Shown piece by piece: positions 45,595-61,945 of a stretch of DNA of 64,000 nucleotides. Within the stretch, counting starts at the first letter, position 1; each line of letters begins with the position of its first letter. The position numbers and the translations under genes were made by a program. The DNA comes from Kumtagia ephedrae (GTDB taxonomy: Bacteria > Pseudomonadota > Alphaproteobacteria > Rhizobiales > Rhizobiaceae): the NCBI RefSeq assembly GCF_003012745.1, contig NZ_PXYK01000027.1:1-64000 (forward strand). The letters are read 5' to 3'. The notes under the pieces were generated by a model. It did not search any database. It was not told the DNA's origin and worked only from the letters and a program-made list of their open reading frames with translations.

Positions 45595-46749
45595 CTAGCT
45601 TGCCGGGGCTGCTTCGCCGGGGACCGCGCTATAGCGCGGATGCTGCTTCAGCACGGCCAGCTGGGCCGCGTTGAACGCCGCCGAGGGCTGCTGGAGCGAG
45701 ACCAGGCCGAGATAGGGGTCCACGACCCCGGTGCTCACGCCGGCAAGCTCTTCCAGGACAGCCACGCCGCAGAAGGGCACGGCGGTCTCCGCATAGCCGC
45801 CTTCCTGGACGATGACCAGCCGGCCGCCGCACAGCTCCGTGGCGGCCTGCCTGACCAGCCGCGTCATCGTGCGGAAGGTCTCGCTGGTCGCCAGCATGCG
45901 GGCCAGCGGGTCGACGCCGTTGGCATCGAAGCCGCTCACCACGACGATCAGGTCGGGACGGAATTCGCGGATCGCCGGCAAGGCTATGCCTTCCATCGCG
46001 GCGAGGTACATGTCGTGCCCGCTGCCGGGCCAAAGCGGGATGTTGATGTTGGCGCCCGCGCCGTCCCCCGCTCCGGCGTCGGAAGCGCCGCCGGACGCAC
46101 CGGGCGGAAAACAATGTTCCTGGTGGATGGAAATGGTCAGCACGTCGCCGCGCCCGTAGAAGCAGGCCTCCGTGCCGTTGCCGTGATGCACGTCCCAGTC
46201 GAGCACCGCGATCCTCTTCAAGCCGTGCCTTGCCCTGGCCGCTTCGACCGCCAGCGCGACATTGGCGAACATGCAGAAGCCCATGGACGTGTCCGGCGAG
46301 CAGTGGTGGCCGGACGGCCGGGTCACGGCATAGGCGGTGCGGCAGCTTCCATCAGCCACGTCGACGACGGCCTGGATGGCGAGGCCGGCCGACTGCTGCG
46401 CGATCTCAAAGGCGCCGCCCGAAAACGGCGCGGTGGGATGAAGCGCCCCGCCGCCGGCGTCGCTCATCGCCTTGAAGGCGTCGATGTAGGATGCCGGATG
46501 GATGCGCAGCAGGTCCTCGCGCGTGGCGGCGGGCGCCTTGCGCCAGTCGAGCCGATCGGTCAGGCCGGACACGTCCATCAGCGATTTGAGGCGCCGCTTC
46601 GGCTCGGGCGAATCCGCGTGGCCGCCGCTCGCCATAGGCTGCACCCAGCCGCCGACCGGCAGCACCAGCGCCGCCGGTCCGGCGCTGAACCACAGGCATT
46701 TTTCGTCGAAATAGAAAGCTGTCCGCTCGCTCGGCGCGCTGGTGCTCAT
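45595..46749 (-). CDS. HDAC-family (acetylpolyamine amidohydrolase-like) deacetylase
   Basis: A 384-residue zinc amidohydrolase of the arginase/HDAC fold. Catalytic landmarks are RPSGHHCSPDTSMGFC (two active-site His), VLDWDVHHGNGTEACF (zinc ligands Asp and His), SIHQEHCFPPG and VVSGFDANGVDPLARM (third zinc ligand Asp). Bacterial members deacetylate acetylpolyamines or cleave other amides. It is the last gene of a long minus-strand operon containing an amino-acid permease and a glutamine-synthetase-like ligase, a context for amine or polyamine metabolism. The start at 46749 is chosen over the ATG 12 codons upstream because it gives the conserved MSTSAPSERTAFYFDEK opening. Confidence 0.88.
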   Translation of the reverse strand: MSTSAPSERTAFYFDEKCLWFSAGPAALVLPVGGWVQPMASGGHADSPEPKRRLKSLMDVSGLTDRLDWRKAPAATREDLLRIHPASYIDAFKAMSDAGGGALHPTAPFSGGAFEIAQQSAGLAIQAVVDVADGSCRTAYAVTRPSGHHCSPDTSMGFCMFANVALAVEAARARHGLKRIAVLDWDVHHGNGTEACFYGRGDVLTISIHQEHCFPPGASGGASDAGAGDGAGANINIPLWPGSGHDMYLAAMEGIALPAIREFRPDLIVVVSGFDANGVDPLARMLATSETFRTMTRLVRQAATELCGGRLVIVQEGGYAETAVPFCGVAVLEELAGVSTGVVDPYLGLVSLQQPSAAFNAAQLAVLKQHPRYSAVPGEAAPAS

Positions 46750-46795
46750 GATGGTCCTCCGTCCCGTTGAAGGTGAAATCGGCAATGCAGGGCCG

Positions 46796-48232
46796 TCACC
46801 GGTTCTGGCCCATCCGGGCGAAGCGGGCCGGATCGGCCTTCTCCAGCCGGACCGCCAGCAGATAGCCCACGACCGCGGCTAGGGGGATCAGCGACGGCAG
46901 GACGATGCCGAGGGCACCGCCCGTCGTGCCGGTCAGGTCGCCGAAATGCAGGAAGATGTAGACGAACAGCGCCGCCATGATCAGGCCCGAGACCGCCGGC
47001 AGGATGAGGGTCGCCAGGGCCGAAGCATCCGTCGCCTTGCCGCGGAAGAAGACGATCACCGCGAGCGAGGTCACTGTCATCATGCCGAGGACGCCGAGCG
47101 TTCCCACCTGGCTGATCCAGGTGAACATGTTGAGCATCGGATCGAGCCCGAGGCCCGCGAAGACCGCCAGCACGAGCAGCGCGCCGATCGTCTGGACGAC
47201 CGAGCCGATGTGAGGGCTCTGATGGTCGTCATGGGTGCGCCCGAACGCGGCCGGCAGCAGTCCCTCGCGTCCCGCCACGTAGCTGTAGCGGGCGATGTAG
47301 TTGTGGAAGGCCGAAAGCGCGGCGAACAGGCTGGACACCAGCAGGACGCCGGCGATCGCGGGCACAGGACCGCCGACATAGCGGCCCGCCAGATCGAAGA
47401 ACAGCGCCGAGGGGTCGCCGTAGCCCTGGATGGTCGGCACGAGCTGGTCGGCGCCGATGCCGACGATCATCAGCCATGTGGTGAAGACGAAAAAGATGCC
47501 GATCATCAGCACGGACAGATAGGTTGCGCGCGGGATGGTCTTTTCCGGCTCGCGCGCCTCCTCGGCGTAGATCGTGGTCGCCTCGAAGCCGATGAACGAG
47601 CCGAGGCAGAACAGCACGGCGGCGGTCAGCGAGCCCGAGAAGATCGCATTGGCGTCGAAGAGGTTCAGCGACAGTCCGGCGGCCCCGCCGGCGCCGATGA
47701 TGGCGAAATCGACGATCAGCACGACGAGGTATTCGAGCGCGACGATGACCACCAGCACCTTGGCCGACAGGTCCACCTGCCGATAGCCGAGGAAGCCGAC
47801 GAGAAGGATTGCGACGAGGCTCCATCCCCACCAGGGAAGAACCAGGCCGAATTCGCCGAAGACGCCGGCCGCGATGCCGCCCAAAAGGCCGATCAGCCCG
47901 AACTGCATGGCGTTGTAGGCGACCAGCGCCACGATCGCCACTGCACCCGCGGTGCGGCCGCCGAGGCCGCGCGCGGCATAGGCGTAGAAGGCACCGGCAT
48001 TGGTGACGTGCCGCGACATGGCCACGTAGCCGGCCGCGAAGGCGAGCATGACCAGCGTCACGAAGATGAAGGTCGCCGGAATGCCGGTGCCGTTGCCCAG
48101 CATGAACGCCAGCGGCATCGCGCCGGCGACGCCGGTCAGCGGCGCCGCCGCCGAGATCACCATGAAGGTGACGGCGATCAGTCCGAGCGAATTCCTGCGA
48201 AGTTGATTGGTCCCCACGCTACTCATGTCCAT
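46796..48232 (-). CDS. APC-family amino acid/amine permease
   Basis: A 478-residue inner-membrane permease with about twelve hydrophobic segments. The conserved opening is LGLIAVTFMVISAAAPLTGVAGAMPLA; FLGSFIGFEATTIYAEEAREPEKTIPRAT is recognisable by the G(S/A)F.GFE.....EE...P..TIPRA pattern of APC transporters. The ATG at 48232 follows GAGGGGAC; a second ATG follows at 48226. It imports an amino acid or amine, presumably the substrate of the operon's enzymes. Confidence 0.9.
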   Translation of the reverse strand: MDMSSVGTNQLRRNSLGLIAVTFMVISAAAPLTGVAGAMPLAFMLGNGTGIPATFIFVTLVMLAFAAGYVAMSRHVTNAGAFYAYAARGLGGRTAGAVAIVALVAYNAMQFGLIGLLGGIAAGVFGEFGLVLPWWGWSLVAILLVGFLGYRQVDLSAKVLVVIVALEYLVVLIVDFAIIGAGGAAGLSLNLFDANAIFSGSLTAAVLFCLGSFIGFEATTIYAEEAREPEKTIPRATYLSVLMIGIFFVFTTWLMIVGIGADQLVPTIQGYGDPSALFFDLAGRYVGGPVPAIAGVLLVSSLFAALSAFHNYIARYSYVAGREGLLPAAFGRTHDDHQSPHIGSVVQTIGALLVLAVFAGLGLDPMLNMFTWISQVGTLGVLGMMTVTSLAVIVFFRGKATDASALATLILPAVSGLIMAALFVYIFLHFGDLTGTTGGALGIVLPSLIPLAAVVGYLLAVRLEKADPARFARMGQNR

Positions 48233-48308
48233 AGTCCCCTCTGAGCTGTATTCCCCGTTGTCGATCCATCCGGCCGCGCGGTTGGTTCCTGCGCCGGCTG
48301 TTGCCCGT

Positions 48309-49502
48309 TCAGCCGGCTGGCCCCGGTCGAACCGGGATTTTCTTGTCTTGGCGGACATGCCCGAAGGCCGCCCTGCACTTTGCGAGAAAGTCGCCGGCCA
48401 GCTGGCTGCGGCGATCCGCCGGCTGGGCGATCGCCACCACCGCGCCCTCCGGAAAATCCTCCTCCAGCGGTATGGCCAGAATTTCCTTGCCGTCGGGCCC
48501 GGTTCTCGATTGCGGCGGCTGCGGGACGATCGAATATCCCAGGTCTTGCGCGACCAGTCCCCGCACCATGGCGAAGGACGGCGACTGCAGGCGGACGAGC
48601 GGCTGGAGCCGGTTGCGCTTGAACAAGGCGGCGGTTGCCGTCCGGACCGAAGGATAGTCCAGCATGATCATCGGCAGCTCGGCGAGATCGGCCAGCCTGA
48701 GGCTCGACCGCGCGGCCAGCGGATGCATCGTGCCCACCAGCACATGAGGGGCGGGCGGGCTTATGAGTTCCACGTCGAGGTCGGCCTCTTCCACCGGACC
48801 GAAGGTGATCGCGGCCTCGATCCGGCCGGCGCGCATCTGCTCGACCAGATCGTCGTGATCCGCTTCCAGCAGGCGGATGTCGACGTCGGGCCTTTCCCTG
48901 GTGAAATCGGCGACCAGGGTCGGCACGAGCTGGGGGCCGAGGGTGATGAAGAAGCCGATATGCAGCTGGTTTTCCGGCCGTTGCGGCTGATGGTCATCGG
49001 GCGCGATCGGGATGGCGCGCCGGTAGCCCCGGTTGGCGTAGACGAGCGGCGAGCGTTGCGCGGAAAGGTCGATCTGCTCGACCTCGCCGATGAAGATGAA
49101 ATGCGTGCCCCAGAGCAGGGCGGTCTTCAGCTCGCAATCGAGCGAGACGACCGCATTGTCGATGATCGGCGCACCGGTCGCGCCGCCGTGCCAGGCGATC
49201 GCGCCGAAGCGGTCCTCGTTGAGGTGCTTGAGCCGGCCGGAGAACAGGTCGGAGACGAAACTCTGGTTGCCGGAGAGCACGTTGGCGCAGAACCGCCGGT
49301 TCTGCCGGATCGCCTCGCAGGCCGGGCTCAGATGGTGGACGCTGATCAGCAGCGAGGGCTTGCTCGTATCGGCCGAGACCGACGTCATCGATGAGACCGT
49401 GACCCCGTATCGGCCGGCGTCGCCGTCGGTCGTGACCACCGTGACGGCGGCGGCCACACGGCTCATGCCTTCGACGAAGCGGGTGCGCAGGTCGGCATCC
49501 AT
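48309..49502 (-). CDS. Fusion: flavin reductase - LysR-type effector-binding domain
   Basis: A continuous 397-residue frame. Residues 1-165 are an FMN-binding flavin reductase (FVEGMSRVAAAVTVVTTDGD, GVTVSSMTSVSADTSKPSLLISV, FCANVLSGNQ and the GEVEQIDLS strand). Residues about 178-388 are a LysR substrate-binding domain (NQLHIGFFITLGPQLVPTLV, RPDVDIRLLEADHDDLVEQM, RAGRIEAAITFGPVEE, DLGYSIVPQP). No helix-turn-helix is present, so it is not a transcription factor. By analogy with the p-hydroxyphenylacetate hydroxylase reductase C1, whose extra domain senses substrate and releases inhibition, this would be a ligand-gated reductase. The likely oxygenase partner is the ACAD-fold enzyme of this operon. 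The start is 5 bases after the glutamine-synthetase-like stop. Confidence 0.88.
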   Translation of the reverse strand: MDADLRTRFVEGMSRVAAAVTVVTTDGDAGRYGVTVSSMTSVSADTSKPSLLISVHHLSPACEAIRQNRRFCANVLSGNQSFVSDLFSGRLKHLNEDRFGAIAWHGGATGAPIIDNAVVSLDCELKTALLWGTHFIFIGEVEQIDLSAQRSPLVYANRGYRRAIPIAPDDHQPQRPENQLHIGFFITLGPQLVPTLVADFTRERPDVDIRLLEADHDDLVEQMRAGRIEAAITFGPVEEADLDVELISPPAPHVLVGTMHPLAARSSLRLADLAELPMIMLDYPSVRTATAALFKRNRLQPLVRLQSPSFAMVRGLVAQDLGYSIVPQPPQSRTGPDGKEILAIPLEEDFPEGAVVAIAQPADRRSQLAGDFLAKCRAAFGHVRQDKKIPVRPGPAG

Positions 49503-49507
49503 GGCGT

Positions 49508-50848
49508 TCACCCGAGATCGAAGAACCGCTCCAGCTCCACGTCGGGAACTTTGCGGCGGAACTCGTCGTGCTGGCACTGGCGGGTGGAGGTGAAGGCCTC
49601 GACGAAGCACTCGCCCAGCCAGTCCCTGGCGAAGGCGGAGCCGCGCAGTCGCTCGATCGCTTCCGGCATGGAGCGGGCGAAGTCGCGGCCCGGCTCCTGC
49701 GCATAGCCCGAGCCGATGGTCTCCGGATCGGGCTCGATCTCGCCGATGACGCCGGCGACGCCCGCCGCGATGGTGGCGGCGGCGGAGAGATACGGGTTGC
49801 AATCGGCGCCGGGCAGGCGGTTCTCGACACGCAGCGACCCCGCGTCGTGGCCGACCAGGCGGAAGCAGGTGGTGCGGTTCTCGAAGCCCCAGGTCAGGCC
49901 GGGCGGCGCGAAGGTGCCGGGCGCGAAGCGGCGAAAACTGTTCACCGTCGGCTGAAACACCAGCGTCAGGTCGCCGACATAGGCCTGCAGGCCGCCGAGG
50001 AAGTGGCGGAACGTCCGGCTGACCCCGTTCTTCTCCTTCTCGTCCCAGAACAGCGGCTTGCCGGCCTTGTCCTTCAGGCTGACGTGAAGATGGATCGACT
50101 GGCTGTCGGCCTTCTCGCTCCAGCGCGGCATGAAGGTGACGGACCGGCCCTGCCGCAGCGCCAGCGCGCGGATGAAGTTCTTCAGCAGGACGAGCTGGTC
50201 GGCAGGCTCGGTGCCTTCGCCGGCGCCGATGCAGGCCTCCATGAAGCCGGCGCCGATCTCCTCGTGCATCTTGGCGAGGTCGATCCTCAGCGGCTCGCAC
50301 ATCGCGGCCACCGCCTCGTACCATTCGGTCTGGACGACCTGGTAGAGGATGAGGTCGTGGCTGGCATGCGCCGTCGCGGTCCTGAGGTTGCGGTAGCCTT
50401 TCGCCCTGGCGCTCTCCGGCGTCTCGTCGAACAGGGTGTATTCCAGCTCCATCCCGTATTTGGGCACCAGCCCCGCCTCGGCGGCACGGGCGAGAACGGC
50501 TTTCAGGATGGCGCGGGGGCAGATTTTCGCCGACGCGCCGGTGTAGTTCGACAGCACCAGCAGGTCGTGCCCCGGCTTCGACCACGGCAGGCGGCGCGCC
50601 GAGGCGGGATCGACCTGCAGCGGATCGTCGTGGAAATCGCCCCTGTCGTCGTTGACGCCGGGGATCGTCAGCATCGCGTCGGTCGGGTCCAGCGCCAGTT
50701 GCGCCGGGGACATGCCCATGCCGTTCTTCATGATGCCCCTGAGGCTGCCGGCCGAGACCATCTGCCCGCGCAGGAGGCCATTGGTGTCGGTCATCGCCAC
50801 GGTGGCGAAGCGGCTGGCCGGGTCGGCCAGGTAGTCCTCAACTGTCAT
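49508..50848 (-). CDS. Glutamine-synthetase-family ligase (gamma-glutamylamide synthetase type)
   Basis: A 446-residue GS-fold enzyme. Metal and substrate sites are KYGMELEYTLFDE (ExE), GAGFMEACIGAGE, SQSIHLHVSL (the usual GSGxHxHxSL), GFENRTTCFRLV (NR..xxR) and VENRLPGADCNPYLSAAA (ExRxxxxxxNPY). It is not the housekeeping GlnA; homologues such as PuuA or GlnT join glutamate to an amine. The stop of the TetR gene overlaps its start by 11 bases, so they are co-translated. In this operon it may tag an imported amine with gamma-glutamyl, or capture ammonia released by ring cleavage. Confidence 0.88.
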   Translation of the reverse strand: MTVEDYLADPASRFATVAMTDTNGLLRGQMVSAGSLRGIMKNGMGMSPAQLALDPTDAMLTIPGVNDDRGDFHDDPLQVDPASARRLPWSKPGHDLLVLSNYTGASAKICPRAILKAVLARAAEAGLVPKYGMELEYTLFDETPESARAKGYRNLRTATAHASHDLILYQVVQTEWYEAVAAMCEPLRIDLAKMHEEIGAGFMEACIGAGEGTEPADQLVLLKNFIRALALRQGRSVTFMPRWSEKADSQSIHLHVSLKDKAGKPLFWDEKEKNGVSRTFRHFLGGLQAYVGDLTLVFQPTVNSFRRFAPGTFAPPGLTWGFENRTTCFRLVGHDAGSLRVENRLPGADCNPYLSAAATIAAGVAGVIGEIEPDPETIGSGYAQEPGRDFARSMPEAIERLRGSAFARDWLGECFVEAFTSTRQCQHDEFRRKVPDVELERFFDLG

Positions 50849-51527
50849 GGTCCACCTGCTTGACGGAATGGGCGCGGATGAGCGGCTCGAGCTCGGCGAG
50901 GTCGCCCTCGGGATCGGTCGAATAGGCCTTCAGGAAGACCCGCAGGCCGTTGTTGACGTAGCGGGCGATCTCGGCCCGCGAGGGCTGGCGGTCGGGCATG
51001 TAGAGCGCCTGCGTGCGCGGCGCCGAGAGGATGAGGCCCCACAGGTCCTGGGCGGCAAGCTCGGCATCCTCGAAGGCCAGCCGCCCGGCGCGCCGCTGGC
51101 CGTCCAGATAATCCATGATGCCGCGCAGCAGGCGGTCGGGGCCGACCTCCTGGTAGGCGCGGCCGATCTCGGGAAAGCGCTGCACCTCGCCGACGATGAG
51201 CCGGGCGAGCGACAGCATGTCCGGCCGCATCACCGTGTCGGCGTAGTCCCAGGCGAAGCCCAGGAGATCCTCGACCATGCCGCCGGGCGAAGGATGCTCG
51301 AACACGTCCAGCATGCGGTCGCGCTCGCCCAGCATCATGGCCGAGAACAGCGCTTCCTTGGACTGGAAGTACTGGTAGAGCGTGGGCTTGGAGAGCCCCG
51401 CCTCGACGGCGACCGCGTCCATGGTCGCGCCGGAATAGCCGGTTTCGGAAAAGACCTTGAGCGCAGCCCGGAGAATGCGCCGCTCGCGCTCGATCCTGTT
51501 CTGCTGGCGTTTCGGCAGCGCGGTCAT
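50838..51527 (-). CDS. TetR-family transcriptional regulator
   Basis: A 229-residue repressor. The HTH is MDAVAVEAGLSKPTLYQYFQSKEALF (TetR pattern, within residues about 36-61), followed by an AefR-like C-terminal effector domain. It lies inside the operon, overlapping the genes on both sides by four and eleven bases, so it is autoregulated through the operon promoter. A TTTACTCGTGAGTTAA palindrome 40 bases upstream of the first gene is its likely operator. Confidence 0.9.
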   Translation of the reverse strand: MTALPKRQQNRIERERRILRAALKVFSETGYSGATMDAVAVEAGLSKPTLYQYFQSKEALFSAMMLGERDRMLDVFEHPSPGGMVEDLLGFAWDYADTVMRPDMLSLARLIVGEVQRFPEIGRAYQEVGPDRLLRGIMDYLDGQRRAGRLAFEDAELAAQDLWGLILSAPRTQALYMPDRQPSRAEIARYVNNGLRVFLKAYSTDPEGDLAELEPLIRAHSVKQVDHDS

Positions 51528-53158
51528 CGCGGCAGCCTCCCGAGGAAATCGAGCAGGATACGGCTGTAGACTTCCGGCTGCTCGACGTTGCAGACATGCC
51601 CGGCATCGGCGATCGTCTCGTAGCGCACGTCCGGCCGTCGCGCCTCGGCCAGGATGCGCTCGGCGACGCCGCGGATCTCGGCCGGCGGGGCCAGCCGGTC
51701 GTGCTCGCCGGTCATCATCAGCACCGGCATGGTCAGGCGCGAGAAATCGAATCTTTCGCGCGGATCGGTGAAGCAGGCCAGCGCATCGCGATAGGTCGCC
51801 GAAGGGATCGCCGCCATCGATTCGAAAAGCTTCGCCCTGACGTCGTCCGAAGCGTTCGGGCCGGCAAGCACGCTCACTACCGCCGGCGCGAAGTCGGCCG
51901 GCGTCCGGCCCTGGTCGAGCGGCACCTGCCGGCTGACGCGGAACGCCTCGCGCTCCTCCGGCCCGGCCTCCGACATGCCGGTGCAGCCGCCGGACAGAAC
52001 CAGCCCGGCCAGCAGTTCCGGGTGACGCATGGCGAACGACGTCGCGATCCACGATCCATAGGACAGGCCGACCAGCACCAGCCGATCCGCGCCGAGTTCT
52101 TCCCGTACGCGAAGGATGTCGGCGCAGTAATCGTCGACCGTCGATTGATGCCGGCCGAGCCCGCTGCCGCCATAACCGCGCAGGTCGAGAGAGGCGGCGC
52201 GCATGAGGCTGCCGGCGGCCTGCAACTGCGGCAGCCAGTTGTGGCGCGATCCGCCTATGCCGTGCAGGAACAGGCAGAGCGGCCCATGGTCGGGACCCGG
52301 AGCTACACTCAGTGCGAGGTCCGGGTCGCCAGCAAGGACGATGTCCTCCACGCCGCGGGCAGGGCAATCGCATAAGGCAAACGGCGATGAATTTCGCTGC
52401 TTCGTACCCCCACCCCTGACCCCTCCCCACAAGGGGGAGGGGGACTTTGCGGCCGCTATGCCATGCGAAACCGTCGACGATTGGCATCTGGCAGAGAGGC
52501 CAGCCGGTGCCCCTCCCCCTTGTGGGGAGGGGTTAGGGGTGGGGGTAGACTCATATGAGCCTGCCCCCGCGCCGCGTGGGACAGCAGCGCCGGCCGCAGG
52601 CCTGGCACCACCCCTCGCCCCCACGACGTGGGGGAGAGGTGACCCGGAGGGCTGGTGAGGGGGCGTGCCGTGCCTTGTGCGAGTTTCCGGCATGGCGACC
52701 GGGGCGGGCAGGGGCCTTGCCGGCTCGGCGCCGGCCTTTCCGGCTGCCTCGGCGAGCGCCTGAAGCCCCGCCTCGAAGATCGCTTTAGTGCCGGCACAGA
52801 TCTCCGCCAGCCGCGGCTCGGCCGCCTCAACCGCCGCGCTCCACCGCACGACGCTGCCGCCGCGCTCGCCGGCGCTGACGGCGATGCGGCCGTCATAGGC
52901 CTCGGCGCCGGCGATTCCCTCGACATGGGTGTAGGCGAGCGTGCGGTCGCTGTCGCTGAACCAGGTCAGCCGCTCGCGGTAGAGCGTGTCCTCGCCATGG
53001 ACGGTGAAGGCGCGGACAAGCGCGCCGCCGCCATCGCGCTCGGCGCGGATGGTGGCGATCGCCGGGTGCCAGCTGCCGCAGAAGTCGGAGACGACGGCCC
53101 ACACCGCCTCCGGCGAGGCGGCAGAGACACCGACGACCTCGACCGTCTCGCGCGCCAT
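51524..53158 (-). CDS. Fusion: SRPBCC domain - repeat-derived linker - alpha/beta hydrolase
   Basis: An uninterrupted 544-residue frame. Residues 1-140 are an SRPBCC/polyketide-cyclase-like ligand-binding domain (VVGVSAASPEAVWAVVSDFCGSWHPAI). Residues about 150-265 are translated palindromic repeat DNA, low-complexity Pro/Gly-rich sequence such as TPTPNPSPQGGG and SPSPLWGGVRGGG. Residues about 270-544 are an alpha/beta hydrolase (CLFLHGIGGSRHNW, nucleophile elbow GLSYGS, DRLAPP acid region, DAGHVCN histidine). An in-frame GTG at 52351 could start the hydrolase separately as a 275-residue protein. In NicX-type pathways an alpha/beta hydrolase (NicD) deformylates the ring-opened product; this gene could have that role. 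The stop overlaps the TetR start by four bases. Confidence 0.75.
   Translation of the reverse strand: MARETVEVVGVSAASPEAVWAVVSDFCGSWHPAIATIRAERDGGGALVRAFTVHGEDTLYRERLTWFSDSDRTLAYTHVEGIAGAEAYDGRIAVSAGERGGSVVRWSAAVEAAEPRLAEICAGTKAIFEAGLQALAEAAGKAGAEPARPLPAPVAMPETRTRHGTPPHQPSGSPLPHVVGARGGARPAAGAAVPRGAGAGSYESTPTPNPSPQGGGAPAGLSARCQSSTVSHGIAAAKSPSPLWGGVRGGGTKQRNSSPFALCDCPARGVEDIVLAGDPDLALSVAPGPDHGPLCLFLHGIGGSRHNWLPQLQAAGSLMRAASLDLRGYGGSGLGRHQSTVDDYCADILRVREELGADRLVLVGLSYGSWIATSFAMRHPELLAGLVLSGGCTGMSEAGPEEREAFRVSRQVPLDQGRTPADFAPAVVSVLAGPNASDDVRAKLFESMAAIPSATYRDALACFTDPRERFDFSRLTMPVLMMTGEHDRLAPPAEIRGVAERILAEARRPDVRYETIADAGHVCNVEQPEVYSRILLDFLGRLPR
52405..52547. repeat. Palindromic repeat element inside a coding frame
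   Basis: The left arm, 52405-52443, and right arm, 52510-52547, are near-perfect reverse complements with CCCCTCCCC-type ends. The spacer is 66 bases. It has the look of the dispersed rhizobial intergenic repeats but lies inside the SRPBCC/hydrolase frame, which stays open through it. Confidence 0.75.
52608..52665. repeat. Half of a second palindromic repeat in the same frame
   Basis: CCCCCAC-GAC-GTGGGGG forms a 7-bp hairpin flanked by CACCCCTCGC and GAGAGGTGAC, the same family as one arm of the element at 2635-2791, with about the same internal hairpin. Only one arm is present. Confidence 0.6.
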
Positions 53159-53163
53159 GGGCG

Positions 53164-54474
53164 TTACCGGGCCGACCGCGCGGCGCCGTGCTCGCCGCGC
53201 CACAGCGACATGCGGGCGCCGCCTTCATCGCCCGGAGCAGAGTCGATCTCGTCCATGTCGTAGAGCGCCAGCACCGAGAGGTAGTCTTCCATGATCTCTG
53301 AGGTGAAGGGCAGCATCAGCGCGCCGCAGCGGCTGTCGCGATACATGCGCTCCAGCGGCAGCGACTTCAGCATCGACTGCCCGCCGCAGGTGCGGATCGC
53401 CATCGACGTCATCTCGGCCGCGCCCTCCATGACGTTGTACTGCGCCGCATACATGCGCAGCACCTCGCCCTTGCTCGGGAACCCCTTCGCCTCGCCGAAG
53501 GCCTGCCACCACAGCGCGCGCATGTTGGCGAGGCGCGCATACATCTTGCCGACGGCGACACGCTTGGTGGCGTACATGCGCCGGTCGATCGGCGGCTGGC
53601 CGGGGATTTTTCCCTTGAGATAGTCCACCATGAAGTCGAAGGCGCCCTGCGCCACGCCTATATAGGTCGGCGACAGCGTGATCATCATGTGCGGCCAGTT
53701 CGGCAGCGTCTTGTTGAAGATGCCGCGCGGCATCAAGAGGTCACGCTCGGTGACGAAGACGTCCTTGAGAATCAGGTCGCGGCTGTTGGTGCCGCGCATG
53801 CCGAGCGGGTCCCACTCGCCCCTGACGCTCAAGCCCGGCGCATCCTTGTGGACGACGAACAGCATCGTGTCCTCGTGGCGGGGCTCCTGCCCCTCGAAGA
53901 CCTCGGTGCAGACGATGGTGTAGTAGTCGCAATAGCCGGCCAGCGACGCGAACTTCTTGAAGCCGTTGATCCGCCAGCCGCCGTCGACCTTGCGGCACTG
54001 CGTCTGGTTCGGCTTCGAGGTCCAGTTCTGGCCGCCTTCCGAAATCGGCTGCGAATAGATGGCCTTCTCCGCGATGGCGCGGCGGAACTGGCGCTCGCGC
54101 AGCGGCGCGAAAGCCGCCTTCTCCTGCGGCGTCAGGTTGGGCATGTCGAACATGAAGCGCGACCACGCCATCGACGAGTTGTGCATGTTGAAGGTGAGCG
54201 CGGTGGCGCCGCAATATTTGCCGATCTCGGCGCCGACCATGGCGTATTCGAACATCGAAAAGCCCCAGCCGCCGAACTCTTCCGGAATGCACAGGCCGAG
54301 GAAGCCTTCCGCCGCCAGATCCCGGTAGTTCTCGACCGGGAAGGAGGCGTCGTCATCGATCCCCTTGGCCCGGCCCGCGAATTTCTCCCGGCCCAGCTCG
54401 TTGACCAGCCGCAGCTTGGCCTGCACCTCGGGTCGGATGCGGGAGAGATCGTAATAGTCGGCAATATCGCTCAT
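53164..54474 (-). CDS. Acyl-CoA dehydrogenase-fold flavoprotein, possibly a monooxygenase
   Basis: A 436-residue protein of the ACAD superfamily: helical N-domain (about 1-135), beta-domain with AIYSQPISEGGQNWTSKPN and FKKFASLAGYCDYYTIVCTE, and a helical C-domain with YRDSRCGALMLPFTSEIMEDYL. In MCAD-type enzymes the catalytic Glu lies in a YEGTSEI sequence; here the corresponding segment reads LPFTSEI, so that Glu is absent (some ACADs carry it elsewhere). With a flavin reductase in the operon, a group D flavin monooxygenase or N-hydroxylase is a credible alternative to dehydrogenation. It starts 18 bases after the NicX-like stop. Confidence 0.82.
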   Translation of the reverse strand: MSDIADYYDLSRIRPEVQAKLRLVNELGREKFAGRAKGIDDDASFPVENYRDLAAEGFLGLCIPEEFGGWGFSMFEYAMVGAEIGKYCGATALTFNMHNSSMAWSRFMFDMPNLTPQEKAAFAPLRERQFRRAIAEKAIYSQPISEGGQNWTSKPNQTQCRKVDGGWRINGFKKFASLAGYCDYYTIVCTEVFEGQEPRHEDTMLFVVHKDAPGLSVRGEWDPLGMRGTNSRDLILKDVFVTERDLLMPRGIFNKTLPNWPHMMITLSPTYIGVAQGAFDFMVDYLKGKIPGQPPIDRRMYATKRVAVGKMYARLANMRALWWQAFGEAKGFPSKGEVLRMYAAQYNVMEGAAEMTSMAIRTCGGQSMLKSLPLERMYRDSRCGALMLPFTSEIMEDYLSVLALYDMDEIDSAPGDEGGARMSLWRGEHGAARSAR

Positions 54475-54491
54475 GCTTTTCTCCGCAGGCG

Positions 54492-55544
54492 TCAGAGCGC
54501 CAGTTCGCCTTGCAGGACGCCGTCCCTGACGACGACGGTCCCGTCCAGGGTGATGGTGCAGTTGCGCATCGGCAGGTCGAAATGGCCGAGCGTGTAGCGG
54601 CCGGCATACTGGTTGGCGCCGGTCGACCACAGGAAGGAGCCGGCGAGCGCCCGGAACTCCACCGCCTGCATGTCGCGCTTGTCGTACATCGCCGCCGACA
54701 CCCAGCGGGCGCGCGGATGCATGCCCCAGCCGACATGGCTCATGCCGTAGGCGTTGCGGTCGTCCCAGGCTTCCATGTATTCGCGGAAATGGATGGCATC
54801 GACGCCGTCGCCCTTGATCGCGGTGACGAAATCGTCCTCGATCGTGAAGTCGATGCGGCTGGTCAGCGTCGTCTTGAACGTCAGGTTCATGTCGCCGATA
54901 TCCATGACGATCCGGCCGTTGACGCAGTTCTTCCCCGGAAAGGCGAGGCACAGGCCGCCCGGCCAGTGCGCGACAGCGCCCGGTGTCGTGCCGAAGCCCG
55001 GCGTGCCGCCGCAGGGAGCGTCGGTGAGGTCGATGACGAGGTCCGTTCCGGCCGGCGAGGTGACGCGCATCTCGCTGGCGTCGCGCAGCATGCGGACGCC
55101 GAGCGCCACCTTAGGGCCGAGCTCCGCCGTCGGCTCGGTGCGTTCCAGGATCTCCGGGTGCTCGTTGGTGACGACCAGCAGGCGGGTGCGGCCCGCCGCC
55201 TCGATCTCCGGCCATTCGGGGGCATGGATCAGCCCCTCGACCGTGCAGTCGACGATCACCTCGCAGAGCTTCAGCGCCTCGATGACGGCGCGGTTGCCCT
55301 GGATCGCCCAGGACGTGCCGGTCGACTTCACCGGCACCGGCGCGGTCTGGCGTGGCGTCGGCATCTGGATCATGCAGAATTCGGCGCCGAGATCGTGCAG
55401 GGCGAGTTCTGACAGATGGACCAGCACCGGACGCGACTGCGTCTCCGACAGGATCGCGACCCGCGTCCCCCTGCCGATCGCGTTCAGCGCGAACACGCGC
55501 CGGAAGCAGTCGAGCCACCGCCCTTCGATGCGCTCTTGCAGCAT
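54492..55544 (-). CDS. NicX-like 2,5-dihydroxypyridine 5,6-dioxygenase family protein
   Basis: A 350-residue protein that I recognise as the NicX family (an M29-peptidase-related fold using iron for extradiol-like ring cleavage). The iron ligands reported for NicX, two His and one Asp, correspond to H270 in YGMSHVGWG and H321/D323 in LGHFDLPMRNC; all are present. WPGGLCLAF, RIVMDIGDMNL, FREYMEAWDDRNAYG and LAGSFLWSTGANQ match further. NicX opens 2,5-dihydroxypyridine to N-formylmaleamate. This is the first gene of an eight-gene operon with hydrolase, flavin oxidase and reductase genes, so ring opening of an N-heterocycle is likely. The actual ring is unproven; an aminopeptidase-like annotation would be the alternative. 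Confidence 0.8.
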   Translation of the reverse strand: MLQERIEGRWLDCFRRVFALNAIGRGTRVAILSETQSRPVLVHLSELALHDLGAEFCMIQMPTPRQTAPVPVKSTGTSWAIQGNRAVIEALKLCEVIVDCTVEGLIHAPEWPEIEAAGRTRLLVVTNEHPEILERTEPTAELGPKVALGVRMLRDASEMRVTSPAGTDLVIDLTDAPCGGTPGFGTTPGAVAHWPGGLCLAFPGKNCVNGRIVMDIGDMNLTFKTTLTSRIDFTIEDDFVTAIKGDGVDAIHFREYMEAWDDRNAYGMSHVGWGMHPRARWVSAAMYDKRDMQAVEFRALAGSFLWSTGANQYAGRYTLGHFDLPMRNCTITLDGTVVVRDGVLQGELAL

Positions 55545-55583
55545 CGCAAATCTCCCATTGACGATCCAACGTTTTCGGATTTC

Positions 55584-55599
55584 TTTACTCGTGAGTTAA
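55584..55599. promoter_or_regulatory. TetR-type operator
   Basis: TTTACTCGTGAGTTAA is a 16-base palindrome with one mismatched pair, the classic TTnACTnnnnAGTnAA form of TetR-family sites. It ends 40 bases upstream of the first gene of the operon that includes a TetR gene. Confidence 0.6.
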
Positions 55600-55629
55600 G
55601 TTTCACGATTTCGGTAAGGCTGCCAATCG

Positions 55630-55948: not shown

Positions 55949-56767
55949 CTATTCCTCCTGGGCCGGGACCGGAACAACGGTCAGGTTCGGCCCAAAACTG
56001 GCGATGCTTGCCGCGACGGCCGGGTCGATGCCTTCGTCGCTGATGACCTCCGCGATCTGCGATAGATCTCCAAACGTGGCAAAGGCGGGCGCCTGGAACT
56101 TCGAGCTGTCGGCAAGCAGGATCGTGCGCCGCGCCGAGCGGATCATCACCCGCTTGATCGCCGCCACTTCCATCGTCGCGTCGGTGAGCCGGGAGCCGGT
56201 GACGGCATAGGTGCCGATGAAGCAGACATCGGCATGAATGTTCTCGAAGAAGGATTCGCCCGGCTCGCCGACCAGCAGGTGCGACGCGGGGCGCACCGTG
56301 CCGCCCGCGACGATAACCCGCCATTGCGGAACATTGGCGCCGATCCGCGCGATCTCGATGCTGTTCGTCACCACCGTCAGGTTGATCTGGCGCAACGCGG
56401 CGGCCTTGACCGCTTCCACCACGGTGGAGCTGGAATCGAAGATCACGCTCTCGCCGCCCCGCAGCCTCTGCGCGGCAAGGTCGCCGATGGCGCTTTTCTG
56501 GCGATGCTGGAAATGCGCGTTGAGCGAGGTTTCACGCTCGAATGTGGCGCGCAGGGGAGGAACGAGAAGCGCGCCGCCATGCGTACGCTCCAGATATCCG
56601 CCCTCGGTGAGTTGTTCGAGGTCGCGACGGATCGTCGACGGCGACCCGCCTATGTTTTCGGTGAGTTCCTGAATGGAAGCAGTCCCGTTGCGCCGAACAT
56701 ATTCGAGAATCATGGCCCGGCGTTTTGCGGGAATGATTTCGACGCGTTTCGTCGCCTGAGTATCCAT
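55949..56767 (-). CDS. DeoR/GlpR-family transcriptional regulator
   Basis: A 272-residue regulator. The DeoR HTH is RRAMILEYVRRNGTASIQEL followed by STIRRDLEQL; the sugar-phosphate-sensing domain (about 90-255) has VIFDSSSTVVEAV, VVTNSIEIA, VAGGTVRP and FIGTYAVTG. It is the last gene of the sugar/polyol operon (ABC transporter, SDR, kinase) and should repress it until a phosphorylated sugar made by the kinase binds. Confidence 0.92.
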   Translation of the reverse strand: MDTQATKRVEIIPAKRRAMILEYVRRNGTASIQELTENIGGSPSTIRRDLEQLTEGGYLERTHGGALLVPPLRATFERETSLNAHFQHRQKSAIGDLAAQRLRGGESVIFDSSSTVVEAVKAAALRQINLTVVTNSIEIARIGANVPQWRVIVAGGTVRPASHLLVGEPGESFFENIHADVCFIGTYAVTGSRLTDATMEVAAIKRVMIRSARRTILLADSSKFQAPAFATFGDLSQIAEVISDEGIDPAVAASIASFGPNLTVVPVPAQEE

Positions 56768-56857
56768 GTGGCCGGATCGTCCTTTCCGTCAGCACCCCGG
56801 ACATGTACCGCCGAATGTAGGCAGGGCGTCCGGCCCCGGCGTGACGCGCTCCCGTAA

Positions 56858-57628
56858 TTACCAGATGGTATATCCGCAATCTACGACCACGATCGAACCG
56901 GTCATTGCGCTGGAGGCGTCGGTCGACAGGAACAGGATGGTGGAGGCAATCTCCTCGGCGGTGGCGACGCGCCTCATCGGCGTGCCTTCCATCCAGTGCG
57001 GCATCAGCGTGTCGTCGGTAAAGCCGCCGCGCGACATGGCGGTGTCGACATAGGTCGGCGCGACCGAGTTCACGCGCACGCCGCGCTCGGCCCATTCGCC
57101 GGCCAGCGACCTGGTCATGTGGTGCACGCCTGCCTTGGCGGCATTGTAGTGAACCTGCCGCTGCGGCTTGTTGGAGATCAGGCCGGACATCGAGCCGACC
57201 GTGACGATCGAGCCGCGCCCGCGCTCCAGCATGGCGCGCCCGAACTCGCGGCAGGACCAGTAGCAGCCGTTGAGGTCGACATCGACCACCTTGTGCCAGA
57301 CCTCGTCCGACATCGATTCTCCGGGCGTGTCGGGCCATGCGATCCCGGCATTGGCGACAAGGATGTCGATGCCATGCCTGGCGTTGGCTTCGGCCGCCGC
57401 GCGGCCGACGGCGGCGGAATCGGTAACGTCGAGCAAGACCGTCTCGACGTCGAAGCCTTTTGCGGCCAGCGCGGCGCGCCCGGATTCAAGCACCGCCGGG
57501 TCACGGTCGGAAATGACGACGCCGGCACCATGCTCGAGCAGGGCTTCCGCCGTGCAGAGCCCGATGCCCCTGCCGCCTCCGGTGATGAAGGCCCAACGGC
57601 CCGACAGATCGAACTTTTGCTTATACAT
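56858..57628 (-). CDS. Short-chain dehydrogenase/reductase (polyol/sugar dehydrogenase candidate)
   Basis: A 256-residue classical SDR: TGGGRGIG cofactor loop (16-23), an Asp after beta-2 (VVISDRD) favouring NAD+, VANAGIA (91-97), and the catalytic Ser-Tyr-Lys in GSMSGLIS and YNAAK (Y161, K165). It would oxidise a polyol or sugar alcohol imported by the adjacent ABC transporter. It follows the ATPase gene by nine bases. Confidence 0.88.
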   Translation of the reverse strand: MYKQKFDLSGRWAFITGGGRGIGLCTAEALLEHGAGVVISDRDPAVLESGRAALAAKGFDVETVLLDVTDSAAVGRAAAEANARHGIDILVANAGIAWPDTPGESMSDEVWHKVVDVDLNGCYWSCREFGRAMLERGRGSIVTVGSMSGLISNKPQRQVHYNAAKAGVHHMTRSLAGEWAERGVRVNSVAPTYVDTAMSRGGFTDDTLMPHWMEGTPMRRVATAEEIASTILFLSTDASSAMTGSIVVVDCGYTIW

Positions 57629-57637
57629 GATGCTTGC

Positions 57638-58735
<1,098 letters not shown>

Positions 58736-58743
58736 CGATATCC

Positions 58744-59565
58744 CTACTTGACTGCGCCGAAGGTAAGGCCTCGTACCAGCTGCCGCTGCGTGATCCAGCC
58801 GAAGACGAGGATCGGGCCGATCGCAAGCAGCGACGCGGCCGACAGCTTGGCCCAGAACAAGCCCTGCGGGCTCGAGAACGAAGCGATGAATGCAGTGAGC
58901 GGCGTGGCGTTCGATACGGTCAGGTTGATGCTCCAGAACGCCTCGTTCCAGGCCAGAATGATGGACAGCAGCGCTGTCGAGGCGATGCCCGGCGCGGTCA
59001 GCGGAATGAGCAGGTGGATGAACTGCCGCAACGGACGAGCCCCGTCGAGGCGCGCCGCTTCGAGGATCTCGCGCGGCACTTCGCGGAAGAAGGTGAACAG
59101 CATCCAGATGATGATCGGCAGGTTGACCAGCATGTAGAGCACGACAAGGCCGATGCGGCTGTCGAGCAGCCCCGCAGACTTGAACATCAGGTAGATCGGC
59201 ACGAGCACGCCGACCGCCGGCATCATCTTGGTCGACAGCATCCAGACGAGCAGATCCTTGGCGCGCTTGCCGGGGTGGAATGCGAGCGCGTAGGCGGCCG
59301 GGAGGCCGACCGCCAGCCCAAGCAGCGTCGACCCGACCGAGACGATGACGCTGTTGAAGAAGAAGTGAAGATAGTCGGCGCGGTCCAGAACCTGCTCGAA
59401 GTTGCGCAGCGTCGGCTCGAAAAAGATCAGCGGCGGACTGGCGATCGCTTCGGGCTCCCGCTTGAAGGCCGTCATCGCCATCCACAGGATGGGAAAGAAC
59501 ATTATGATCGCCAGACCCCATCCGGCGACGGCGGCGAAGATGCGCTGGGTCAGAGGCCGCTCCAT
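58744..59565 (-). CDS. Sugar/polyol ABC transporter permease, MalG type
   Basis: A 273-residue membrane protein with six hydrophobic segments, the periplasmic loop common to MalG-type permeases and the coupling motif [21 protein letters not shown] (EAA-x3-G pattern). Its start is two bases before the stop of the MalF-type permease. It forms the inner-membrane channel with that protein. Confidence 0.9.
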
Positions 59566-59567
59566 CG

Positions 59568-60458
59568 TCAGCGATCCAGATTGTGGGAGATCGTGCGCAC
59601 AAGGAAATACGCGACGATGTTGGCGAGGATGATGGCGATCACGCCGCCAGCGGAGGCCCAGCCGACATTGTAGTCGAGCAGCGCCACCTTGTAGATCAGG
59701 AAGGGCAGCGTCGTGGAGGCGTTCCCGGGTCCGCCCGCAGTCGTCACGAATATCTCGGCGAAGACCGACAGCAGGAAGATCGTCTCGATCATCACGACGA
59801 TGGTGATCGAGCGGGCGAGGTGAGGCAGGGTGATGAAGCGGAAGAGCCGGAGGCCCTTGGCCCCGTCCATGCGCGCGGCTTCCACCTGGTCCCGGTCGAG
59901 GGATTGCAGCGAGGTGAGCAGGATCAGCGTCGCGAACGGGATCCATTGCCAGGCGACGATGACGCCGACCGAAAACAGCGGCCATTGCGCGAACCAGTCG
60001 ACGACGGGCAGGCCCAGCGTGCGCGAAATATAGGCGAACAGCCCGTTCACGGGGTGCATCAGCAGGTTCTTCCAGATCAGCGCGCTGACCGTCGGCATGA
60101 CGAAGAACGGTGCGATGCAGAGGAGCCGCGCGATGCCGCGCCCGGGGAACTGCTGGTCGAGCGCCACCGCGCAGGCAAGGCCGATGACGACCGACGCGAC
60201 GAGGACGCCGGCGACCAGGAAGATCGTGTTGGCCAGCGCGTTGAAGAGGTTCGGATCGGTGAACAGGAAGACGTAGTTGCGGAAACCGACGAAGCCGCCC
60301 GCCGAGGCGTCGAGCAGGCTGTAGCGCTGCATCGAGAACCACAGGGTGAGCGCCAGCGGCACGATCATCCAGATCAGCAGCAGGATCACCGAAGGCGCCA
60401 GCAGCGGGCGCGTCGAGATCATCGGGCCGATACTGTCAGTGGAAGCGTTGCGTTGCAT
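59568..60458 (-). CDS. Sugar/polyol ABC transporter permease, MalF type
   Basis: A 296-residue membrane protein with six hydrophobic segments and the coupling loop [19 protein letters not shown]. It lies after the binding-protein gene, with a GC hairpin in the 98-base gap that would favour higher binding-protein expression. Confidence 0.9.
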
Positions 60459-60514
60459 GTCGTCGGTTAAGCACCTGCGAGGGCACGGCCGTCAGGCCGG
60501 GGAACGATGGAGAA

Positions 60515-60540
60515 CCGGGCCGCCATGACTGGCGGCCCGG
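60515..60540 (-). terminator. Intercistronic hairpin after the binding-protein gene
   Basis: CCGGGCCGCC and GGCGGCCCGG form a perfect 10-bp stem with a 6-base loop, 16 bases after the binding-protein stop. There is no T-run on the minus strand, so it more likely protects the 3' end of the binding-protein mRNA than ends transcription fully. Confidence 0.5.
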
Positions 60541-60556
60541 CGCGGGCTTGGGAGGA

Positions 60557-61870
60557 TTACTTCTTGGGATAGCCCGCTTCGTCCACGGCGCGCTGCGCGA
60601 TGGCCTGCGAAGCCTTGAGCGCATCGTCGACCGACTTCTGCCCGGCGATGACGGCGCCGAATTCCTGGCCGACGGCGGTGCCGATCGACTGGAACTCGGG
60701 AATGCCGACGAAGCCGATGCCGCGATACGGCACGGGCTCCTGCGTCGGGCCGTTCACGTCGGCCGACTGGATCGTATCCATCGTGATCTTCGCGAAGGGC
60801 GCCGCCTCGATGTACTCGGCGTTGGCATAGGTCGACCGGCGCGTGCCCGGGGGCACCGTCGCCCAGCCGGTCTCCTCGGCGACCAGGTCGATATAGTCCT
60901 TCGAGGTCGCCCAGTAGATGAACTTGTTGGCCGCCTCGGGCGACTTCGACGAGACCGGCACCGCCAGCGACCAGGCCCACAGATAGTGGTTGCCCTTGTC
61001 GAACTTGCCGTACGGCGGATAGGCGTAGCCGACCTTGTCGATCACCGTGCTCTGGTCGGGATCGGCGAGGAAGCCGGCCGACACCGTCGCGTCGACCCAG
61101 ATGCCGCACTTGCCGCTGGCGAACAGGGCGAGATTCTCGTTGTAGCCGTTGGAAGATGCACCCGGAGGGCCGTACTTGTTGAGAAGGTCGACATACATCG
61201 CCAGCGCCTCTTTCCACTGCGGCGTGTCGAGCTGTGCCTTCCACTGTTCGTCGAACCAGCGGGCGCCGTAGCTGTTGGCGGCCGGCGTGATCTGGCCGAC
61301 GTTCTCGCCCCAGCCGGGCTTGCCGCGCAGGCAGACGCCGTAAACGCCGTTGGACGGATCGTGAATCTTCGCGCCGACATCGCCGATGTCCTTCCAGGTC
61401 GGCCGCTCGGGCATGGTGACGCCCTTCGCCTCAAGCAGATCCTTGCGATAGAAGGTCATCTGGCTCTCGGCGTAGAACGGCAGCGCGAAGAGCTTGCCAT
61501 CGAAGGACAGGCCGTCACGCACCGACTGGAGAACGTCGTCCAACTCGTATTCGGCCGGCACGTTCTCGAACGGCACCAGCCAGCCGCGCTCACCCCACAT
61601 CGGCGCCTCGAACATGCCGATGGTCATGATGTCGTATTGGCCGCCATTGGTCGAAATGTCCGTCGTCAGACGCTGGCGCAGCGTGTTTTCCTCGAGCACC
61701 ACCCAGTTCAGCTTGATGTCCGGGTTCTGCTCTTCGAACTGCTTCGACAGGCGCTGCATGACGACCATGTCGTTGTTGTTGACGGTGGCGACCGTCAGCG
61801 TCGTGGTCTGCGCCAGCGCGCTGCCGCATAGCAGCATGGCGGCGAGCCCTCCCAGTACGACTGATTTCAT
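60557..61870 (-). CDS. Sugar/polyol ABC transporter substrate-binding protein (sorbitol/mannitol type)
   Basis: A 437-residue family-1 binding protein with a signal peptide (MKSVVLGGLAAMLLCGSALA). The mature part starts QTTTLTVATVNNNDMVVMQR and carries NWVVLEENTLRQRLTTD, the opening typical of SmoE/MtlE polyol-binding proteins, and the C-terminal EAGYPKK. It captures a hexitol or similar polyol in the periplasm. Confidence 0.9.
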   Translation of the reverse strand: MKSVVLGGLAAMLLCGSALAQTTTLTVATVNNNDMVVMQRLSKQFEEQNPDIKLNWVVLEENTLRQRLTTDISTNGGQYDIMTIGMFEAPMWGERGWLVPFENVPAEYELDDVLQSVRDGLSFDGKLFALPFYAESQMTFYRKDLLEAKGVTMPERPTWKDIGDVGAKIHDPSNGVYGVCLRGKPGWGENVGQITPAANSYGARWFDEQWKAQLDTPQWKEALAMYVDLLNKYGPPGASSNGYNENLALFASGKCGIWVDATVSAGFLADPDQSTVIDKVGYAYPPYGKFDKGNHYLWAWSLAVPVSSKSPEAANKFIYWATSKDYIDLVAEETGWATVPPGTRRSTYANAEYIEAAPFAKITMDTIQSADVNGPTQEPVPYRGIGFVGIPEFQSIGTAVGQEFGAVIAGQKSVDDALKASQAIAQRAVDEAGYPKK

Positions 61871-61945
61871 TTCCTTCCTCCTCTCAAGTGCCGGTGCGCC
61901 GGCGTTCCGCAGTGAACTTTCGGCCGGACCGCGACGCCGGCCGCC

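Follow-up and report, generated by a model that had tools for sequence, protein, structure and literature searches.

Results

A NicX homologue heads a conserved gene cluster in Kumtagia ephedrae

The window analysed here, a 64,000-nt stretch of Kumtagia ephedrae DNA (contig NZ_PXYK01000027.1 of assembly GCF_003012745.1, positions 1-64,000; genome of 6.1 Mb), carries on its minus strand a gene cluster that begins with a homologue of the dioxygenase NicX of Pseudomonas putida. All eight open reading frames (ORFs) that the original prediction had described at 45595-55544, separated by overlaps or very short gaps, are present (Table 1). The NicX-like gene and the gene of the acyl-CoA-dehydrogenase-fold (ACAD) protein are 17 bp apart, and 5 bp separate the latter from the SRPBCC-hydrolase fusion gene, which overlaps the TetR gene by 4 bp. 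The TetR gene in turn overlaps the gene of the glutamine-synthetase-like (GS-like) ligase by 11 bp, and the flavin reductase gene follows after 5 bp. The gap between reductase and permease is 76 bp when the permease starts at the ATG that matches the length of its relatives; an alternative ATG at 48358 would make the two genes overlap. A further 46 bp lie between the permease and the gene of the histone-deacetylase-like (HDAC-like) protein. Pfam confirmed the domain names of seven of the eight proteins, the exception being the NicX-like protein.

Table 1. Genes and sequence features of the nicX-like locus in the window
Feature	Position	Strand	Basis
NicX-like Fe(II) dioxygenase, 350 aa	54492..55544	-	phmmer, residue alignment, Foldseek
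ACAD-fold protein, 436 aa, probably a flavin-dependent oxygenase	53164..54474	-	Pfam, motif
SRPBCC domain and alpha/beta hydrolase in one ORF, 544 aa	51524..53158	-	Pfam
GC-rich inverted repeat, in-frame insert in the linker of the fusion gene	52405..52547	.	sequence repeat
TetR/AefR-type repressor, 229 aa	50838..51527	-	Pfam
GS-like (gamma-glutamyl) ligase, 446 aa	49508..50848	-	Pfam, glutamine-synthetase catalytic domain
Flavin reductase with C-terminal LysR substrate-binding domain, 397 aa	48309..49502	-	Pfam
APC-family (amino-acid) permease, 478 aa	46796..48232	-	Pfam
HDAC-like amidohydrolase (histone-deacetylase-like domain), adjoins the conserved unit, not a member	45595..46749	-	Pfam; gene order in relatives
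Palindromic operator CTTTACTCGTGAGTTAAG, probable site of the operon's own TetR	55583..55600	.	counts in upstream regions; binding inferred

Is this arrangement shared by other bacteria? A scan of a collection of species genomes with the NicX-like protein gave 349 relatives, of which the best 80 (78-96% identity) were kept as close-branch loci; their ORFs come from a simple ORF caller, with some starts overextended, and many neighbour names were assigned by eye. Counterparts in Mesorhizobium amorphae and Mesorhizobium sp. are 95-96% identical to the window protein. In the 70 loci with at least 9 kb of downstream sequence, the ACAD, SRPBCC and hydrolase genes follow the NicX gene without exception (70/70), together with TetR (67/70), the GS-like ligase, which is usual but not universal (65/70), the flavin reductase (60/70), the APC permease (48/70) and the LysR half of the reductase (15/70). 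Median gaps are -1 bp between the NicX and ACAD genes (n=74), 2 bp between ACAD and fusion (n=72), -1 bp between fusion and TetR (n=51), -8 bp between TetR and GS-like (n=48) and -1 bp between GS-like and reductase (n=46). This conserved order upholds the earlier claim that a NicX homologue heads a coherent catabolic operon, and the concern voiced with it, that the neighbours might not be conserved together, gave way to the opposite finding. The claim went too far at its downstream end: an HDAC-like gene lies downstream on the same strand in 0 of the 80 relatives, which rules it out as a member. The remaining seven genes, from the NicX-like gene to the permease, are a conserved unit.

Rhizobiales, Rhodobacterales and a few other lineages share the order of the core genes, and the substrate is therefore probably common in soil and water. 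Marine organisms (Phaeobacter, Sulfitobacter, SAR116) are among the close loci. In an order-level sample of 150 genomes the close branch occurs in the window genome only. A plasmid of Ensifer adhaerens carries the seven-gene core flanked on either side by transposase genes and lacking the other catabolic genes. Six plasmid records match the NicX-like protein at 80-90% identity and the following 201 at below 60% (38.9% being the best among those listed), a drop that marks the close branch as distinct and strongly constrained. A distant branch, at 46-59% identity, is found in 25 other genomes of a 385-genome sample of the class; in the 20 of these loci examined with wide flanks, NicX, hydrolase and ACAD genes recur together, often with an AMP-forming CoA ligase. 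Both branches are present in genome G672 and therefore probably differ in their job.

The transporter at the end of the operon varies by genus and may be an APC permease, a Pot-type ABC transporter, an oligopeptide-type ABC transporter or a tripartite tricarboxylate binding protein (L041, L048, L049, L051, L062, L073 and L077; the ABC and tricarboxylate names were given by eye). The nearest structures of the HDAC-like protein beside the operon include propanil hydrolase (457 bits) and dimethoate hydrolase (443 bits), neighbours that may point to an arylamide substrate.

The NicX-like protein keeps the iron site and lacks a key pocket residue

Pfam and NCBIfam searches with the NicX-like protein gave no match. 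In phmmer, residues 12-342 align with P. putida NicX (7cn3, E 5e-56), the sole match at E 0.001. Foldseek, run on a model of middling confidence (predicted local distance difference test, pLDDT, 67.8), returned 7cn3 at E 2.6e-29 and 28% identity, and PepS, AmpT and AmpS at E 1.6e-12 to 4e-11 and 11-14% identity. Both searches place the head protein nearest to NicX, as had been predicted, and the suspicion that it might prove to be an aminopeptidase is not borne out by Foldseek, where the M29 peptidases rank far behind NicX. Of six plasmid records with a close relative, four nonetheless name it peptidase M29 and two leave it unannotated.

Residue roles were taken from the accessible part of the NicX structure paper (PMC7910607) and followed through an alignment of 83 close rows (the 80 loci and three plasmids) and 45 distant rows (25 proteins, 20 of them entered twice), together with two nicotinate-type rows that are a single protein entered twice. 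The window protein keeps all four iron ligands, H265, S302, H318 and D320; the first three are invariant in the close rows and D320 is kept in 82 of them (one Val), and all four are kept in 45/45 distant rows. The substrate-contacting H105 and H189 are present in 83/83 close rows and in 45/45 and 40/45 distant rows, respectively, and the supporting R293 is kept in the NicX-like protein. A difference lies at Glu177, which in NicX, according to the accessible text of the same paper, contacts the N1-H and the 2-oxygen of the dihydroxypyridine and whose replacement (E177A) leaves 2.7% of the activity. This position holds Thr in 83/83 close rows and Gly or Val in 45/45 distant rows (25/25 proteins), and the position of Glu308 is Tyr in 83/83 close rows. 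The change of Glu177 to Thr supports a different ring, one of the two possibilities (the other being a gamma-glutamylated intermediate) that the original prediction had considered likely; in our best explanation 2,5-dihydroxypyridine would not be the ring opened.

The window genome has a nicotinate-type gene set at another site (G000:C5, locus L083, 8404-17699). Besides a molybdenum hydroxylase that carries cytochrome c domains, an FAD monooxygenase and a regulator of the MarR type (by eye), this set contains an Amdase-family gene, which we take to be a maleate isomerase, and a NicX homologue that shares 33-34% identity with the window protein. Among the ORFs and Pfam matches of 45595-55544 there is no gene for a molybdenum hydroxylase, FAD monooxygenase or maleate isomerase. 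Since the nicotinate-type set is elsewhere, the window operon should belong to another pathway, in agreement with the earlier view that it is not the known nicotinate pathway. The separate cluster and the lost Glu177 together rule out that pathway as its function and make nicotinate an unlikely substrate. In the nicotinate-type cluster, Glu177 is retained by the NicX homologue, but the position of the essential His105 of P. putida NicX is occupied by Phe.

Partner proteins

In the ACAD protein, whose nearest structures are PDB 5gj7/5z8t, Pro aligns with the usual catalytic Glu (EGTSEI motif), and the stretch YRDSRCGALMLP[YF] is found in 78/78 relatives. The absence of the usual Glu fits an oxygenase, short of proof; a base elsewhere in the protein may take its place. 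The hydrolase half of the fusion protein resembles PcaD and aryl esterases in sequence and also in a confident structural model, made for the Mesorhizobium relative L003 (pLDDT 89.5) rather than for the window protein itself. Between the SRPBCC and hydrolase domains, the window gene contains a GC-rich insert with two 23-nt copies of CCCCTCCCC...GGGGAGGGG, which leaves the ORF open at 544 aa; other called fusion genes mostly encode 415-466 aa.

The LysR substrate-binding domain of the flavin reductase comes without a helix-turn-helix, and the same fusion occurs in 16/80 relatives; in an Aminobacter plasmid record, the annotation at the place of the flavin reductase mentions a LysR substrate-binding domain. 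A reductase with its own LysR ligand-binding domain offers a testable case of substrate-gated flavin supply.

A conserved palindrome precedes the operon

The expected TetR operator is indeed found upstream. A palindrome of the form CTTWACT-N4-AGTWAAG is found 38 bp ahead of the start codon of the NicX-like gene and is the sole site in the 64-kb window with at most two mismatches to this pattern; 2 of 100 shuffles had one. Within the same tolerance it occurs in 68/81 upstream regions (the window and 80 relatives), exactly so in 49. Chance was ruled out as its origin by comparison with random 220-bp segments of the same loci, 12/2000 of which contained the pattern, possibly including real sites. 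The operator is probably bound by the operon's own TetR. A second palindrome, similar to ATTTTCGAAAAT, is present in 29/81 upstream regions versus 18/3000 random segments.

Gentisate-dioxygenase and anthranilate genes accompany the operon

Near the NicX-like gene, and mostly directly upstream of it, the close loci carry genes for a gentisate-dioxygenase-like protein (31/80), a FAH-family hydrolase (30/80) and a second flavin reductase (33/80); a GntR-type gene is present in 24/80 and a nitrilase-family gene in 17/80. The dioxygenase scores 562 bits against gentisate 1,2-dioxygenase (PDB 3bu7) and 299 bits against the NCBIfam model, whose cut-off is 442. The module is part of the unit in some 30 of the 80 relatives. 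In the window genome it sits beyond the window, roughly 12.5 kb upstream of nicX on the same contig (GntR, dioxygenase, FAH and second flavin reductase at C27:68010-71593, 80-91% identical to the copies of L008). A block of ABC-transporter, DeoR, SDR and kinase-like genes (55949-63208) and a methyltransferase-like ORF, all named by eye except DeoR, lie in between. The simplest reading is that an insertion split an ancestral operon and separated the module from nicX.

The genomes of the NicX branches are also rich in NF006101, the model of a bifunctional salicylyl-CoA 5-hydroxylase/oxidoreductase, which presumably includes 2-aminobenzoyl-CoA monooxygenase/reductase. In the class sample, NF006101 exceeds its cut-off in 19 of 26 NicX-branch genomes (25 of the distant branch and, for the close branch, the window genome) versus 46 of 359 others (Fisher p 5e-11), while the control PaaA gave 7/26 versus 40/359 (p 0.03). 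It is over cut-off in 36 of 37 close-branch genomes (37 of the 80, mostly named isolates), against backgrounds of 43/150 in the order, 65/121 in the family of the window genome and 40/115 in the family of the Rhodobacter-type genome G552. Within this last, Rhodobacteraceae-type family, the association holds (6/7 versus 34/108, p 0.007).

Physical linkage is seen as well. An NF006101 gene lies within about 8 kb of the nicX-like gene in 3/20 distant-branch regions, and a benzoate-CoA-ligase-type gene is found near the permease in 9/80 close loci, in eight of them downstream on the strand of the operon. The same ligase type adjoins NF006101 genes in L164, L165 and L166 (54-82% identity). Next after the ligase, the Shinella loci L066 and L068 have a gene resembling tryptophan-2,3-dioxygenase, which is cut by the end of the locus (in L066, 256.7 bits over 163/264 positions; cut-off 390.7), and the nicX contig of L066 carries within about 25 kb a kynureninase gene (over cut-off) and an NF006101 gene. 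Genes resembling parts of an NF006101-gene cluster lie next door in L063 and L081 (mostly by eye). For a hydrolase of Shinella (L066, 17773-18663), a reading as kynurenine formamidase was dropped, since the protein is over the cut-off of an HSL-family model. Homoprotocatechuate meta-cleavage-like genes (by eye) occur near the operon in L004, L033, L036 and L080.

Discussion

Here, we describe a conserved operon headed by a NicX homologue, for which gene content, order, conservation, operator, kept catalytic residues, a changed pocket and an association with anthranilate genes are established. Homology supports the type of reaction. What its readings share, the hydroxylation, NicX-type cleavage and hydrolysis of an N-heteroaromatic compound other than 2,5-dihydroxypyridine, we regard as likely. 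The full explanation that we put forward as the best, a catabolic operon under TetR control for opening an aromatic ring that contains nitrogen, with an indole-type ring as first guess, is tentative.

How could such a pathway proceed? In the order that we consider most likely, the flavin reductase would feed reduced flavin to the ACAD-fold oxygenase, which would hydroxylate the ring, the NicX-like Fe(II) enzyme would then cut the C-C bond beside the ring nitrogen to leave an N-formyl group and a carboxylate or ketone, and the SRPBCC-hydrolase would take off the formyl group. The permease would import the substrate and the GS-like enzyme would glutamylate an amine. With an indole-type, tryptophan-derived ring, a cut between C2 and C3 would give N-formylanthranilate or a 2-formamidobenzoyl compound, from which the hydrolase would free the amine, i.e. 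anthranilate. Two fates are conceivable for anthranilate: entry into the 2-aminobenzoyl-CoA route, or 5-hydroxylation followed by breakdown through the gentisate-dioxygenase module of the same unit. Gentisate-type cleavage of 5-hydroxyanthranilate would yield an amide, from which FAH could release pyruvate and maleamate; maleamate might be hydrolysed by an enzyme of the nitrilase family (that of the 17/80 loci, or another type in L003 and L005), and the maleate-isomerase-like gene product of L003 and L005 might lead on to fumarate. The indole scheme would then account for the enzymes of the extended unit with three elements left over: the second flavin reductase, the GS-like ligase and the SRPBCC domain. 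Taken in all its detail, i.e. a NicX-superfamily Fe(II) dioxygenase that opens the C2-C3 bond of an indole-type ring and is accompanied by a deformylase of its own and by a lower branch of the 5-hydroxyanthranilate/gentisate type, it is doubtful.

If true, it would supply genes for routes of indole and indoleacetate that, in the accessible texts of PMC6221969 and PMC11630574, are described so far by metabolites. The accessible part of the review PMC6221969 lists indoxyl, N-formylanthranilate, anthranilate and gentisate as metabolites of indole and gives the gene of the gentisate branch as unknown. An indole-gentisate route of 1983 and a 2-formamidobenzoylacetate route of 1961 are cited in these two papers, and, according to the portion seen of PMC11630574, the formation of 2-formamidobenzoylacetate from indoleacetate, reported in 1961, is not well classified. 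Our literature search returned no recognised description of this gene set; many subscription papers lie outside its coverage, hence this is no proof of absence.

Several points weigh against the indole-type explanation. Every reaction and the substrate are inferred, and, to our knowledge, 2,5-dihydroxypyridine cleavage is the sole characterised activity in this branch of the fold. Besides the three elements without a role, the varied transporters stay unexplained, and the maleate-isomerase-like and nitrilase-like genes of L003 and L005 would suit a pyridine route too. The class-wide NF006101 test draws almost entirely on distant-branch genomes; in the family to which the window belongs the difference is not significant (7/9 versus 58/112, p 0.12), and all of these p-values are uncorrected for ancestry and inflated by generalist metabolism and shared ancestry. 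In 4/80 loci the operon has meta-cleavage genes of a different aromatic route nearby, and the linkage could therefore reflect the usual clustering of catabolic genes. Finally, gentisate dioxygenase exceeds the NCBIfam cut-off in 0 of 30 close-branch genomes (29 of the 37 tested for NF006101 and the window genome), 19 of which have any match.

The main rival, second to the indole-type ring as a guess, is the breakdown of a methylated pyridine such as homarine (N-methylpicolinate), possibly by the homarine operon of a 2026 paper, which we consider unlikely. A NicX-type C5-C6 cut would here be followed by deformylation by the hydrolase, and the GS-like ligase, which would thereby gain a role, and methylglutamate enzymes would handle methylamine or a methylamino acid. 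The loss of a Glu that binds the ring N-H suits an N-methylated ring, and the marine relatives are in keeping with it; genes similar to methylglutamate synthase subunits lie near the Sulfitobacter locus L074 (by eye). The 2026 operon reportedly bears the name homABCDER, and five genes and a regulator would equal the core enzymes and TetR in number. However, none of the neighbour families that recur in at least 5 of the 80 loci consists of methylglutamate genes, the gentisate-dioxygenase module and the NF006101 association would go unexplained, and flavin-dependent hydroxylation of a pyridinium ring is chemically harder. The accessible text of PMC13390433 cites the 2026 paper and a participation of methylglutamate dehydrogenase in homarine catabolism, and the sections seen of PMC12817926 and PMC9038784 mention homarine without genes. 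If the 2026 genes are these genes, the operon may already be described.

Quite unlikely, in our estimate, is another pyridine route, from a substituted dihydroxypyridine through maleamate and maleate to fumarate. NicX is the closest characterised relative, L003 and L005 have maleate-isomerase-like (Amdase-family) and nitrilase-like genes directly upstream of nicX, and 17/80 loci have another nitrilase-family gene; yet Glu177 is lost in all relatives seen, a nicotinate-type set exists separately in the same genome, and such a route explains neither the upstream gentisate dioxygenase and FAH genes nor the association with NF006101. The conserved GS-like ligase and the amine-type transporters would agree with an aromatic amine lacking a ring nitrogen, which would be glutamylated and hydroxylated to a dihydroxybenzene, opened by the NicX-like enzyme and split by the hydrolase in an HsaABCD-like manner. 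The meta-cleavage genes near four loci and a tyramine-oxidase gene beside the operon in Aminobacter would fit as well. We nevertheless find this improbable, as NicX is reported, in the accessible part of PMC7910607, to be inactive on phenols, hydroquinones and catechols, with the reservation that a branch with a changed pocket could differ. That the head gene encodes a metal aminopeptidase among unrelated neighbours, as the peptidase M29 records imply, has these annotations and the fold common to M29 peptidases on its side; the phmmer match to NicX alone, the kept NicX iron ligands, the Foldseek ranking and the fixed gene order led us to reject it, and we give it next to no credence.

Returning to the indole-type ring as first guess and homarine as second, we anticipate that naming the substrate would extend the chemistry of the NicX fold to a new ring, correct peptidase annotations and tie this fold to the turnover of anthranilate or of methylated pyridines.

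How does the operon compare with known systems? The HsaABCD scheme of steroid ring cleavage uses a flavin reductase, an ACAD-fold oxygenase, an Fe(II) ring-cleavage dioxygenase and an alpha/beta hydrolase in series, and the window operon has these four kinds of enzyme. Its dioxygenase, in contrast, is of the NicX branch, and the scores of the operon's proteins to HsaA, HsaB and HsaD are far below cut-off. With the nic pathway it shares homology to P. putida NicX over nearly the whole length, the four iron ligands, H105, H189 and R293, and it differs in Thr for Glu177, Tyr at the position of Glu308, the absence of NicA, NicB and NicC alongside and its other partner genes. The nic pathway employs the deformylase NicD, whose part the hydrolase of the operon could play. 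The iif/ind indole clusters, with the two-component oxygenase IifC/IifD and anthranilate as product, resemble it, as far as the accessible text of PMC6221969 goes, in the pairing of oxygenase and flavin reductase and in the suggested anthranilate end point with a downstream 2-aminobenzoyl-CoA route, reported there for Cupriavidus. Unlike these clusters, the window operon has a NicX-like enzyme, a GS-like ligase and an SRPBCC-hydrolase; the likeness is one of gene types. By ORFs and Pfam, no SDR gene of the IifB type is among the operon genes, and the SDR gene at 56858-57628 belongs to the block upstream. With the homarine pathway (Ferrer-Gonzalez et al. 2026, known to us through its citation), the operon may have in common a methylated pyridine as substrate and a distribution among environmental bacteria.

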